NCBI GenBank assembly: GCA_027071315.1
Contig: JALSUP010000007.1
Span: 1 to 47,211 of the forward strand
Direction of reading: 5' to 3'
From: Sulfurovum sp.
GTDB lineage: Bacteria > Campylobacterota > Campylobacteria > Campylobacterales > Sulfurovaceae
Length of the DNA stretch: 47,211 nucleotides
Shown here: one piece after another, positions 5,939 to 29,624 of the stretch
How the letters are laid out: each line of letters starts with the position of its first letter
Position numbering within the stretch: the stretch's first letter is position 1
Notes under the pieces: generated by a model
Seen by the model: only the letters and a program-made list of their open reading frames with translations
Told to the model about the DNA's origin: nothing
Databases searched by the model: none
Made by a program: the position numbers and the translations under genes

Positions 5939-6622
5939 ATGCAAAACAGTATAGAGATCATCGTAATAGAAGATGAAGAAGATATTTTAGAACTGATAGA
6001 GTACCACCTCGAATCAGAAGGCTACACCGTGACAGGCTTTCTCTCCAGCGAGAATGTCGAACAGTTCCTTGAAGAAGAGACCCCTGCATTGATGATCGTT
6101 GACCGAAACCTTCCGGGAATGGAAGGAAGCGAATTTGTCGCCTATTTACGTGACATAGGCTACACCATACCGGTTATTTTTCTTACAGCCAAAGACAAAG
6201 AGTTTGAACTTGAAGAGGGTTTTGTTGCCGGTGCAGACGACTACATTACCAAACCTTTTCGTCCTATGGAGCTGAAACTCCGTGTCAAGGCACTTCTTAA
6301 ACGCTACGGGGTACTGACCAAACAGAAACGCTTGAAATATAAAGAGATCCTCATTGATCTTGAAGAGAGCAGTGTGCTGGTCAAGGAAAAAGCTGTTTCC
6401 CTGACACCGCTCGAATTTAAACTCCTGAAAACCTTCCTTGAAAATATAGACAAACCGCTGACCCGTGATTTCCTGCGTGATGAGGTATGGGGTTCAGAAG
6501 GCGAAGGGGTCAATGACAATGCTGTCAATGTAGCCATAAACCGTTTGAAAAACAAGATAGACCCTCAAAATGAAGCCAATTATTTCTCTCCTGTCTGGGG
6601 AGTAGGGTATAAATTTTCCTAA
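5939..6622 (+). CDS. OmpR/PhoB-family response regulator
   Basis: A 227-residue two-component regulator. The receiver domain (about 1-120) has the acidic pair E11/D12, the phosphoacceptor D55 in IVDRNLPG, the TAKD threonine, and K105 in YITKPF. A winged-helix DNA-binding domain (about 130-227) ends in the typical GVGYKF. Its place at the end of the pst-phoU operon suggests the phosphate regulator (PhoB or PhosR type), which would bind the three-repeat box at 2619-2646. No histidine kinase gene adjoins it; recQ follows. Symbol left blank because orthology to PhoB or PhosR was not tested. Confidence 0.88.
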   Translation: MQNSIEIIVIEDEEDILELIEYHLESEGYTVTGFLSSENVEQFLEEETPALMIVDRNLPGMEGSEFVAYLRDIGYTIPVIFLTAKDKEFELEEGFVAGADDYITKPFRPMELKLRVKALLKRYGVLTKQKRLKYKEILIDLEESSVLVKEKAVSLTPLEFKLLKTFLENIDKPLTRDFLRDEVWGSEGEGVNDNAVNVAINRLKNKIDPQNEANYFSPVWGVGYKFS

Positions 6623-6646
6623 AAATATGTCAATATGACATATTTT
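6622..6646. promoter_or_regulatory. 25-bp perfect palindrome before recQ
   Basis: Two 11-bp arms (AAAATATGTCA and its complement) around a 3-nt centre, starting in the stop codon of the regulator gene and 36 bp upstream of recQ. It may be an operator or an AT-rich terminator of the pst operon; the arm ends in four T. A very similar palindrome is at 9100-9124. Confidence 0.6.
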
Positions 6647-6682: not shown

Positions 6683-8464
6683 ATGAATAAATTAGAAACC
6701 CTAGAACACTATTTCGGACACAGCGCCTTTCGACCTTTGCAAGAAGAGGTGGTCGATGCCATACTGAACAGAGAAGATGTACTGATGATCCTGCCTACGG
6801 GTGGAGGAAAGTCTCTCTGCTACCAGCTCCCGACACTACTGATGGAGGGCATTACCGTTGTTGTCTCTCCTCTGCTTGCCCTCATGCATGACCAGGTCAC
6901 GGCACTCAAAGCCAATGGTATTCCTGCGGCCATGTTGAGTTCCATGCAGGACCTGGAGCAGAGTCAAAAGATAGAAGGCGAATTGAGAGCAGGGAAGATC
7001 AAACTGCTTTACGTGGCACCGGAACGCTTGACCAATGCCTATTTCCTGACTATGCTGCATCAACTCCCCATCAACTTTTTTGTCATAGACGAAGCGCACT
7101 GCGTTTCAGAGTGGGGACATGAATTCAGAGAAAACTACAGACGACTCTCTCTGCTCAAAGAGCAGTTTGCCACAACCCCTATTACCGCTTTTACAGCCAC
7201 AGCAACCAATGCCGTGGAACAGGACATCGCCACCAATCTGGGCTTGCAAAACCCAAAACGTGTCAGAGGGTCACTTTTCAGAGACAATCTGACCATCCAT
7301 GCCAAACACCGCATTAAAGACGGTCGTGCACAACTCATGGAGTTCCTGAAAATGCATCAAGGCGAATCGGGGATCATCTATACCCTCTCCCGTAAAAATA
7401 CAGAAGCCGTAGCACATTTTTTACAGGAAAAAGGCATAGAAGCCAAAGCCTACCATGCCGGTCTCCCCACGCAGGAGAAGAACAAAACCTATGCAGACTT
7501 TGTGGCAGACAAGGTACAGGTTGTCGTGGCAACTATCGCCTTTGGTATGGGAATTGACAAGTCCAATATCCGTTTTGTCGTACACATGACCATGCCCAAA
7601 ACGCTGGAGAACTTCTACCAGGAGATCGGACGGGCAGGACGGGACGGACTGGAAGCGGAAACCCTTCTGCTCTTCTCTGCTCAGGACATTGTGCAGCAGA
7701 AGATGTTCATTGAAGACCTGCCGGAGACCCCTTACAAAGAGCATGCCTTCAACAAACTCGACAGCATGGTACGTTTTGCCAACTCTGAAAACTGCCGCCA
7801 TCAGTCTGTGGCTGCCTATTTTGATGACCGTATTAAAGCCTGTGAGACATTGTGTGACAACTGTACCGCACCAGAGAGTGAAAAGGTTGACATTACAACC
7901 GCCTCGCGCATGCTGCTCTCTACCATTTTGCGTACAGACCAGAAGTTCGGTCTGCACTATGTCATTGATGTACTTAAAGGCTCCAAGGAGCAGAGACTCC
8001 TTCAAAACGGGCATGACACACTCTCTGTCTATGGTATCGGTACGGAGTATTCTAAAAACCAATGGTTGACAATCGGTGACAAGCTGCTTGAACTGGGTGC
8101 TGTTGAAATCGGTGAATTTAAAGTCTACAGGTTGACAACCTTTGGGGTGGAAGTCATTAAAGGTGCCCACGAGATCCTGCTCAAAAAAGAGCGTCTTGAA
8201 GTGCAAAAAGCCGTTGCGAAGAAAAAAGTCAGCTATTTTGATGATTATGATGTAGAGATGTACGACAGACTGAGAGACCTCCGTACACAAATTGCTTCTG
8301 CAAAAGGCATACCTCCATACATCGTCTTTTCAGACAAAACACTTAAAGACCTCTCCTCCAAAGTCCCTCAGGATAAAGAAGAGATGCTTGCTGTCCACGG
8401 CATAGGTGAAGTGAAGTTTGAACGGTATGGGGAAGCCTTTTTAGCGTTGCTGATTGATGGGTGA
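6683..8464 (+). CDS. recQ: ATP-dependent DNA helicase RecQ
   Basis: A 593-residue 3'-5' DNA helicase for recombination and replication repair. Walker A is LPTGGGKS, the DEAH box is VIDEAHCVSEWGHEFR, and motif VI is QEIGRAGRDG. The zinc-binding region has cysteines at CRHQS and CETLCDNC, followed by a winged-helix RQC part and a C-terminal HRDC domain (about 515-593). Length fits the RecQ family. The ribosome site is weak (AAGG about 14 nt away) and a TACACT hexamer ends 7 nt before the ATG, so a leaderless start is possible. A 25-bp palindrome lies just upstream. Confidence 0.95.
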   Translation: MNKLETLEHYFGHSAFRPLQEEVVDAILNREDVLMILPTGGGKSLCYQLPTLLMEGITVVVSPLLALMHDQVTALKANGIPAAMLSSMQDLEQSQKIEGELRAGKIKLLYVAPERLTNAYFLTMLHQLPINFFVIDEAHCVSEWGHEFRENYRRLSLLKEQFATTPITAFTATATNAVEQDIATNLGLQNPKRVRGSLFRDNLTIHAKHRIKDGRAQLMEFLKMHQGESGIIYTLSRKNTEAVAHFLQEKGIEAKAYHAGLPTQEKNKTYADFVADKVQVVVATIAFGMGIDKSNIRFVVHMTMPKTLENFYQEIGRAGRDGLEAETLLLFSAQDIVQQKMFIEDLPETPYKEHAFNKLDSMVRFANSENCRHQSVAAYFDDRIKACETLCDNCTAPESEKVDITTASRMLLSTILRTDQKFGLHYVIDVLKGSKEQRLLQNGHDTLSVYGIGTEYSKNQWLTIGDKLLELGAVEIGEFKVYRLTTFGVEVIKGAHEILLKKERLEVQKAVAKKKVSYFDDYDVEMYDRLRDLRTQIASAKGIPPYIVFSDKTLKDLSSKVPQDKEEMLAVHGIGEVKFERYGEAFLALLIDG

Positions 8465-8588
8465 TTTTTTGTGTAAAATTAAAATGACATAAGGGTGTAG
8501 GGTGTTGTGCCCTCACAACACCACAAATTTGAATTACGATTGAAATTTATTTGTATGCATATTGTCGGTGTTGTAAGGGTACAACACC

Positions 8589-9065
8589 CTACGGGTTTTT
8601 TATGAATGATGAATATTTCCATGCCTCCCACGTATCAACATAAGCATGTTTGACAGCGTTGTGTTGTATATAGTGCATTTTTCCGAGCCAGTCTTTTTCA
8701 TCTCTTATGGTATGTTCATAAAATCTTTTTTGCCAGATACCAGAGAGTTTACGCTTGTAGCCAGAGGAGCTTAGGTGTAATTTGGCTTTTTCTTTGAGTG
8801 ATGCATCTAGCCCGTAAATAAAACTACGCTTGATATGGGTGATGATTTTGGAGTATTCCTGAGGGTTTTTAGGTGTGAGTATCATATGTATATGGTCAGG
8901 TAAAATGACAATAGCATCTATATGATAATCATACCGTTGTTTGCTCAGTTTAAAACTGTCACGTAAGAGTGTAATGTTGTCAATGAGTATGGGGTTCCGT
9001 CCCTGGGTAACCATGGTGATAAAGTAGCTATACCCATCAAGATATATTCGTTTATAATTTGACAT
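8589..9065 (-). CDS. REP-associated tyrosine transposase (RAYT, TnpA_REP)
   Basis: A 158-residue single-strand DNA transposase of the HUH Y1 class related to IS200/IS605 TnpA. The metal-binding HUH motif is HIH (H58, H60) in LPDHIHMIL. The probable nucleophile is Y132 in HYIQHNAVK, followed by the RAYT-like tail WEAWKYSSF. RAYTs are known to cut and join REP hairpins at a GTAG or similar foot rather than to move themselves. The surrounding family A hairpins start with GTAG, matching this. The gene's TAG stop (complement of 8589-8591) is part of the GTAG foot of the hairpin at 8567-8592. A 25-bp palindrome lies 34 bp upstream of the start. Confidence 0.9.
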   Translation of the reverse strand: MSNYKRIYLDGYSYFITMVTQGRNPILIDNITLLRDSFKLSKQRYDYHIDAIVILPDHIHMILTPKNPQEYSKIITHIKRSFIYGLDASLKEKAKLHLSSSGYKRKLSGIWQKRFYEHTIRDEKDWLGKMHYIQHNAVKHAYVDTWEAWKYSSFIKNP

Positions 9066-9099
9066 AGTTCATAGTAGCATAGATAAAAATGAGAGATGA

Positions 9100-9124
9100 A
9101 AAATATGACAAATTGTCATATTTT
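9100..9124. promoter_or_regulatory. 25-bp perfect palindrome before the RAYT gene
   Basis: Two 12-bp arms (AAAATATGACAA and its complement) around one central base. It is identical at 21 of 25 positions to the palindrome at 6622-6646. Its place upstream of the RAYT start suggests an operator; a repeat element is the alternative. Confidence 0.6.
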
Positions 9125-9542
9125 GGATTTAATCATAATTTGGATTGTTGTGGGCTGTAGGGTGTTGTCTCCCGACAACACCGAAAACATGGATTCTATA
9201 ATATTACGTATTTACAGATATATTATTATTCAAATTATCGGTGTTGTAAGGGTATAACACCCTACGGTTGGCATGAGAATTGTGATGTACCGGGGAAGGG
9301 TTGTGCCCCTCACAACACCACAAATTTGGCTATAATTATTATCTTTATGACAAGAGGAAACAGTTTAGACTTGCTAAAGAATTAGGATTGATATGAATTT
9401 CTAGTTAAAAAGGTGTTGTCGTGGGACAACACCCTACGGTTGGAATGCAAATTAAATTTAATAGGGTGAAAAATCCTGTAGGGTGTTGTACCCTTACAAC
9501 ACCGATAATATAAACAACACATAAAAACAATTCGGAGAAAAA

Positions 9543-10109
9543 ATGAAACAACAAAAGAAACCCCTCTGCGGCATAGATGAAGCAGGTCGCGGTCCTTTGG
9601 CCGGTTCTTTGGTGATGGCAGGGGTGATACTGAAAAATCCTGTTGATGGGTTGATGGATTCTAAAAAGCTTACGGAGAAAAAACGTGAAGTACTTTTCCC
9701 TCTGGTCATTGAAAATTCAGACTATCATATTGTTTCCTTTTCTGCAAAGGAGATAGATGAACTTGGTATTTCAAAGTGCATCCATGCCGGTTTGAAAAGT
9801 ATTCAGGATCATTTGCCTGAAGCTGAGTATCTTTTTGACGGTAACAGCACCTTCGGGGTTGACAACATCACGACGATGGTCAAAGCGGACGATAAAGTAC
9901 AGGAAGTCTCAGCGGCGAGTATTTTGGCGAAGGTGACACGGGACAGAGAGATGGTAAAAATGGCGAAGGTCTATCCGGAGTATGGGTTTGAGAAGCATAA
10001 AGGCTACGGTACCAAAGCCCATATGGAAGCCTTGGTCAGGTATGACCGCTGCGAGATCCACCGTAAAACCTTTCGTGTGAAAGGCTTAGATGAACCCGCA
10101 CTCTTTTAA
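9543..10109 (+). CDS. rnhB: ribonuclease HII
   Basis: A 188-residue enzyme that removes ribonucleotides from DNA and RNA from RNA:DNA hybrids. The family motif CGIDEAGRGPLAG near the N-terminus contains the first catalytic acidic pair. Further typical segments are LFDGN, KADDKVQEVSAASILAKVTRD and EYGFEKHKGYGT. The ATG has a GGAG ribosome site 5 nt upstream. It stands alone on its strand, with the hairpin array before it and a double hairpin after it. Confidence 0.95.
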   Translation: MKQQKKPLCGIDEAGRGPLAGSLVMAGVILKNPVDGLMDSKKLTEKKREVLFPLVIENSDYHIVSFSAKEIDELGISKCIHAGLKSIQDHLPEAEYLFDGNSTFGVDNITTMVKADDKVQEVSAASILAKVTRDREMVKMAKVYPEYGFEKHKGYGTKAHMEALVRYDRCEIHRKTFRVKGLDEPALF

Positions 10110-10140: not shown

Positions 10141-10176
10141 ATGCGACTTCAGTCGCATGTAAGCGACTGAAGTCAC
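10141..10176. repeat. double hairpin between convergent genes
   Basis: Two adjacent small palindromes: ATGCGACT-TC-AGTCGCAT (10141-10158) and GCGACT-GA-AGTCAC (10163-10176, one mismatch). They can also pair with each other. On the minus strand GGAG lies close before the stem, so it may be a REP-like element of another family, or a bidirectional terminator between rnhB and the convergent gene. Confidence 0.6.
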
Positions 10177-29529: not shown

Positions 29530-29624
29530 GTAGGGTGCGTAATCACGCACCACATGGCTAAATCGGCATATCATGATACATTGACCGAAAGGGTTAAACA
29601 TAGGTGCGTGACTACGCACCCTAC
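29530..29624. repeat. REP-like hairpin pair, family C
   Basis: Two inverted copies of GTAG plus stem GGTGCGT/ACGCACC with 4-nt loops: 29530-29551 (+) and 29603-29624 (-), feet outward. It lies between the convergent small peptide gene and nagE and may also stop transcription from both sides. Confidence 0.88.

Follow-up and report, generated by a model that had tools for sequence, protein, structure and literature searches.

Seven GTAG-tagged hairpins at positions 8497-9503 of a 47,211-nucleotide stretch of Sulfurovum DNA (the window; contig C7 of a 2.59-Mb genome, G000) lie between recQ and rnhB, around an intact HUH/Y1 gene. This arrangement raises the question of whether gene and hairpins form a REPtron, that is, a RAYT gene with its cognate REPs, and of how such a gene is controlled. 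The features concerned are the following.

6683..8464, plus strand: recQ, left neighbour (TIGR01389; synteny)
8497..8522, plus strand: REP 1, GTAG and 9-bp stem, ninth pair G-C
8567..8592, minus strand: REP 2, ninth pair A-T; its GTAG holds the RAYT stop codon TAG
8589..9065, minus strand: RAYT gene, 158 amino acids (NF047646, 4er8 alignment, AlphaFold2 model)
9157..9182, plus strand: REP 3, ninth pair C-G
9240..9265, minus strand: REP 4, ninth pair A-T, one stem mismatch
9290..9319, plus strand: REP 5, decayed, GTAG lost
9412..9437, minus strand: REP 6, ninth pair C-G
9478..9503, plus strand: REP 7, ninth pair A-T
9543..10109, plus strand: rnhB (RNase HII), right neighbour (model match; synteny)

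Analysis of the hairpins confirmed the places and the strict +,-,+,-,+,-,+ orientation described in an earlier sequence-only reading, together with the decay of the copy that it had placed at 9296-9319 (REP 5), the plus orientation of which is assigned from a match of its 3' flank ACAAATTTG to the one in REP 1. The hairpin itself, taken in that reading as 8 bp plus N6, had to be redrawn: in an intact copy, GTAG precedes a hairpin with a 9-bp stem (GGTGTTGTN) and a loop of 4 nt between its two arms, and the ninth pair covaries. Also missed earlier was the damage to REP 4, where a G>A stem mismatch accompanies a fold of just -3.9 kcal/mol; the intact copies have folding z values of about -3 to -4.4. 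A genome search gave 56 matches to the true hairpin pattern and none to the reversed control pattern, far above chance. REP 1 and REP 2 make up a REPIN with GTAG outward, and REP 3 and REP 4 are likewise REPIN partners. Strict alternation across the RAYT gene is particular to this locus; the order in relatives is -,+,RAYT,+,- or +,-,RAYT,-,+, and the recurrent unit is the inverted REP pair with GTAG outside. Directly 3' of rnhB, at 10145-10174, there is also a 12-bp inverted repeat (GACTTCAGTCGC) that is unrelated to the GTAG REPs.

The product of the gene passes the NCBIfam RAYT model NF047646 with 140.5 bits (cut-off 80); against the IS200 model it reaches 28 bits, short of the cut-off of 55. 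Its sole PDB relative by sequence is the E. coli RAYT (4er8), and the same entry, a RAYT bound to its REP hairpin, is the best PDB match of its AlphaFold2 model (pLDDT 92; E=8e-13), with the ISDra2 and IS608 transposases ranking behind. The HUH motif is formed by H58 and H60, with Y132 and N136 as catalytic residues, and W111, Q112, E117, H118 and R121 are the residues that contact GTAG in E. coli according to the 4er8 alignment; all of these positions are invariant across 20 RAYT relatives. With dN/dS values of 0.07-0.14 against five orthologues, the gene is under purifying selection. Its nearest named relatives come from Sulfurovum MAGs. Five RAYTs of this genome exceed the model cut-off, of which the two closest to the window RAYT are 57% identical to it and carry GGTGCGT stems, not GGTGTTGT, and two others share only ~30% identity; three Y1 proteins score below the cut-off. 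The model score, the full set of GTAG-contact residues and the match to a RAYT-REP hairpin complex bear out the earlier REP/RAYT interpretation, and by sequence and predicted structure the 8589-9065 gene is a bona fide RAYT. Elsewhere in the window, at 29530-29624, we observed an outward-GTAG pair of the GTAG-GGTGCGT family, the stem of which flanks a paralogous RAYT on contig C148.

Pattern searches of the genome detected ~40 dispersed REP copies at no more than one mismatch on 19 contigs, compared to 0-1 for the reversed control pattern; the copy count is a lower bound, as several copies sit at contig ends. A sister stem, GGTGCTGT, is intermixed with the GGTGTTGT REPs, even inside single pairs. 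Pair statistics were computed for 178 REPs drawn from eight genomes. In 169 of them the ninth stem pair, which may be G-C, C-G or A-T, is complementary, with 66 expected after shuffling, and neighbouring REPs are arranged as 36 outward and 15 inward inverted pairs against 2 direct ones. Of 51 pairs of inverted neighbours, 49 differ in their ninth pair, where 5000 permutations gave 35.6 on average and 45 at most. The inverted pairs are thus heterodimeric REPINs, comparable with the Y/Z pairs known from E. coli, and the many dispersed, mostly inverted copies that the sequence-only reading had regarded as support for mobilisation are present, with stems that differ at the last pair. When 133 GTAGs from different loci were examined, 26 were seen to close a reading frame open over 100 or more codons; the other frames gave 4-5.

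Two further repeat structures were noticed in the course of these searches. A second alternating array (+,-,+,-,+) with a ~196-bp period occupies positions 8825-9241 of contig C54 in this genome (L026, L077-L079), a contig on which no RAYT was detected; the array mixes GGTGCTGT and GGTGTTGT stems. A longer dispersed repeat of ~150 bp (containing AGAAAAAACGAAGCAAAAAATCGTTGTG and GGGCGTTCGCCACAACAGG) adjoins many REPs, as at L019, L024, L025 and L029 in this genome and L241 and L242 in relatives.

When the recQ-rnhB gap was compared between species, five others also proved to hold a RAYT there, 66-92% identical and with REP clusters to its left and right; in G024 the gap is only inferred, because recQ with RAYT lies at the broken end of one contig and rnhB at that of another. 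The gap measures 8 bp in G038 and ~95 bp in G050, which have no RAYT there, and in G002 and G003 it contains a single REP without RAYT, which looks like the remnant of a lost locus or may be a lone insertion. This synteny, together with the purifying selection, supports vertical inheritance of a RAYT gene that is not itself mobile and has been kept in the recQ-rnhB gap. In G004 and G046 the gap also contains ~2.7-2.9 kb of extra DNA beside RAYT, flanked by two REP clusters (L167, 4784-7644, and L168, 4104-6792, respectively).

The stem sequence is linked to the protein. Among 40 RAYTs with readable flanking REPs, the 14 stem types need 15 changes on the RAYT protein tree, compared to at least 25 with shuffled labels. 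Stem type therefore follows RAYT clade across Sulfurovum, in the comparison that the sequence-only reading had proposed. In a survey of 78 genomes of the genus, in which exact REP counts were set against the best RAYT match, all seven genomes with a match of at least 74% identity carry 26-67 exact REPs, and 33 of the remaining 71 have none (Mann-Whitney p 2e-5). One relative combines 40 exact copies with a RAYT in the recQ-rnhB gap. The pairing is nevertheless not strict in Sulfurovum: a search at E <= 1e-10 found no RAYT in at least seven relatives having at least 20 REPs, among them two genomes that are 99% complete and have 27 and 35 copies, and the RAYT of G041 is broken. The earlier reading had named two observations that would count against it; confinement of the hairpins to this locus is contradicted by their dispersal, and the occurrence of hairpins in many relatives lacking RAYT is borne out in part by these seven or more REP-rich genomes. 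Inactivation of a RAYT has left orphan REPs in Pseudomonas Pf-5 (PMC3390384), so the RAYT-less relatives weaken the REP/RAYT pairing and do not overturn it.

Turnover of the REPs was followed at six sites compared with relatives, three of which aligned well enough for reading; those on contigs C146, C171 and C120 have diverged flanks or other repeats. Downstream of a gene on contig C64, this genome and G046 carry a GGTGTTGT REPIN, and the same site contains a GGTGTGC pair in G038, a single GGTGTGC hairpin in G002 and a GGTGCGT hairpin in G004; in G061 the GTAG is present and the hairpin absent. All versions share their starting GTAG, and the stop codon of the gene lies within it. The two other orthologous sites display the same kind of exchange, with differences in both presence and family; in one case the site is filled in G008 (...TTGTAG) and empty in G061 (...TTGTAA). 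IS200/IS605 enzymes insert 3' of their tetranucleotide, and by analogy the site pattern fits insertion 3' of a GTAG target. Recombination that replaces one related REP by another would give a similar pattern.

The promoter of the RAYT gene contains a further element, which recurs in front of recQ.

6622..6646, no strand assigned: palindrome of the same operator-like type, recQ promoter, 39 nt before the ATG
9100..9124, no strand assigned: operator-like palindrome AAAATATGACAAATTGTCATATTTT, perfect, RAYT promoter, 37 nt before the ATG

Using a query built from these two sites and refined on RAYT orthologues, we found the palindrome (ATATGNCAAWWTGNCATAT) upstream of RAYTs, usually 37-38 nt from the start codon, a spacing that partly reflects the common descent of RAYT promoters. 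At no more than one mismatch it occurs in 19 places in the genome. Outside the window it was noted at C4:21865, C13:15056, C38:30081, C38:57718, C73:520, C91:13797, C126:37751, C164:3969 and C181:50073. All five RAYTs over the cut-off have it in their promoters (hypergeometric 1e-11, or ~1e-9 by a rough estimate that leaves out the window's own RAYT site); the window RAYT and recQ sites count by construction, as the query was built from them, which does not apply to the other four RAYTs or to the repair genes. It is absent at the three Y1 proteins of the genome below the RAYT cut-off. Within the clade and its relatives, 30 of 46 RAYT promoters contain the palindrome at no more than two mismatches, compared to 0.1 in shuffles, and about one third of the 46 RAYTs are without it, notably the clade with GTTTGG stems. 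The remaining places, from this genome and G004 together, lie upstream of recA, recQ, ruvA, radA, radC and nadK-recN, as well as of a Y-family polymerase gene, comM, dprA and recG, among others. Since it is common to RAYTs and to recA, recQ and other repair genes, RAYT appears to be part of an SOS-like regulon, and on this promoter comparison a regulon shared between repair genes and RAYT is probable. The palindrome is also located between divergent small genes (110 and 121 amino acids in G000; L260 and L253, at C140:19930 in G000 and 1056141 in G004), which are candidate new members of the damage regulon.

Two potential regulatory genes are likewise preceded by the palindrome. One encodes an 80-residue helix-turn-helix-like protein. 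The other encodes a protein of 217 residues that combines a CI-type helix-turn-helix (Phage_CI_repr) with an S24 peptidase domain and possesses what self-cleavage requires, an Ala97-Gly98 bond and a Ser138/Lys175 dyad. It is not a LexA orthologue, as its 34 bits against the lexA model are far from the cut-off of 111. Epsilonproteobacteria, or Campylobacterota, have been described as lacking LexA (PMC2390758); Bacteroidetes were once thought to lack it as well, and S24 repressors were then found to run their SOS response (PMC8565304). Judging from its domains and its own promoter, we consider it rather likely that the S24 protein is a damage-responsive repressor of the repair/RAYT regulon.

Several explanations of the locus have to be weighed against one another. 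That the RAYT gene and its hairpins move as one unit, like an ordinary insertion sequence, is suggested by the inverted hairpins on either side of the gene, which resemble IS200/IS605 ends. We reject this reading as the most improbable of all: near-identical whole copies are absent from the genome, where the paralogues are at most 57% identical and each has its own stem, RAYT occupies one orthologous site in six species, and the IS200 model stays below its cut-off. It is also very improbable that the hairpins serve chiefly to terminate transcription or to stabilise mRNA between convergent genes and lie near RAYT by coincidence. REP 1 and REP 2 do lie between the convergent recQ and RAYT genes, REPs are often found at gene 3' ends in this genome, and some GTAGs end long open frames (26/133). 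Against this, the stem sequence tracks the RAYT clade and not the host gene, GTAG is kept, orthologous sites vary in presence and family, and an Rfam search of the hairpins gave no match. From the identity of RAYT, the dispersed REPs, the tracking of stem by RAYT and the conserved site it follows that the locus is an ordinary REPtron of REPINs, and we regard it as almost certain that it comprises a RAYT with cognate GTAG-REPs in about three and a half REPINs.

What then has to be decided is whether the palindrome ties this REPtron to DNA repair. It might instead be an ancestral element of RAYT promoters, such as the site of a general activator, with no link to damage, so that RAYT and REPs behave as they do in E. 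coli and Pseudomonas. The anatomy, the heterodimers and the stop-codon overlap are all known REPtron features, and the nearly fixed spacing between palindrome and RAYT start is what inherited promoters would be expected to show. Moreover, there is no LexA box upstream of E. coli rayT, and such wiring is therefore not general. Inheritance of a RAYT promoter does not, however, account well for the palindrome that two genomes have upstream of unrelated genes for recombination and repair, for its presence at different spacing before remote RAYTs of ~30% identity, or for its absence at the three sub-cut-off Y1 proteins, and we consider this explanation unlikely. Taken together, a REPtron with repair-linked control of RAYT is the likely explanation of the locus as a whole.

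By analogy with known systems, the RAYT, which as an HUH/Y1 nuclease is a relative of the IS200/IS605 transposases, would bind the REP as a single-stranded hairpin, read its 5' GTAG and cut there, and could so spread or rearrange REPINs. Most likely, the S24 LexA-like repressor would bind the palindrome and keep RAYT as silent as the repair genes, until replication stress or damage to the DNA would release it along with RecA and RecQ. Such release would coincide with abundant single-stranded DNA, the presumed substrate, and RAYT may then act on REP hairpins in single-stranded DNA at stalled forks, with the spread and exchange of REPs as either a by-product or the purpose. We lean slightly towards the view that the RAYTs of Sulfurovum belong permanently to a LexA-like damage regulon under the S24/CI-type repressor, with REP mobilisation tied to replication stress, and that RAYT may be a domesticated enzyme for single-strand processing in the repair response, not a mere parasite.

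Parts of this picture are already known, namely the array type, the heterodimers, the stop-codon overlap and the GTAG REPs in Sulfurovum. The sequence-only reading knew of no described case in Campylobacterota, which is wrong: Di Nocera 2013 (PMC3733652) reported GTAG repeats in epsilonproteobacteria and referred by name to Sulfurovum NBC37-1, which according to that paper encodes tyrosine transposases. The same paper describes HH dimers and heterodimers, with many REP families preferring the latter, and GTAG REPs that often supply a stop codon. Its repeats are thus like ours in genus, dimers and heterodimers and the use of GTAG as stop codon; its main text contains no Sulfurovum REPtron, and regulation is not its subject. 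The REPtron of E. coli K-12 (rayT/tnpA-REP, Y and Z2 REPs, 4er8) likewise has GTAG-tagged hairpins, and its HUH/Y1 protein, a monomer, agrees with that of Sulfurovum in the HUH motif, the catalytic Y/N and the residues that contact GTAG; three REPINs of two unlike REP types surround one gene in K-12 (PMC6006769). The Sulfurovum system differs from it in its short, 9-bp hairpin without bulge, in its recQ-rnhB site and in the palindrome common to repair genes, where E. coli rayT has no LexA box. IS200/IS605 elements (IS608, ISDra2) share the fold, the hairpin with a 5' tetranucleotide guide and, as modelled, the HUH/Y1 chemistry; unlike them, RAYT is single-copy, vertically kept and below the IS200 model cut-off.

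On the regulatory side, the closest likeness is to the LexA SOS regulon and to the non-canonical S24-COG2932 LexA of Bacteroidetes (PMC8565304), with a palindrome before recA, ruvA, the recN operon, a Y-family polymerase gene and the S24 repressor gene, the product of which has Ala97-Gly98, Ser138 and Lys175. The Sulfurovum case, known from sequence, differs in the palindrome itself, in a helix-turn-helix of CI type and not that of LexA, and in the inclusion of RAYT genes. The literature on RAYT and LexA yielded only an E. coli promoter list and no LexA-RAYT link. The literature searched contains no earlier report of REP stems matched to RAYT clades in Sulfurovum, or of RAYTs in a putative SOS-like regulon.

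If true, an operator shared with recA, recQ, ruvA and recN would place RAYT in the DNA-damage response and would point to an SOS-like circuit in Campylobacterota, a group described as being without LexA (PMC2390758). The action of RAYT would then be timed to the exposure of single-stranded DNA, which bears on the long retention of single-copy RAYTs. The catalogue of 14 stem types for 40 RAYTs could be used at once to study hairpin recognition by these proteins.
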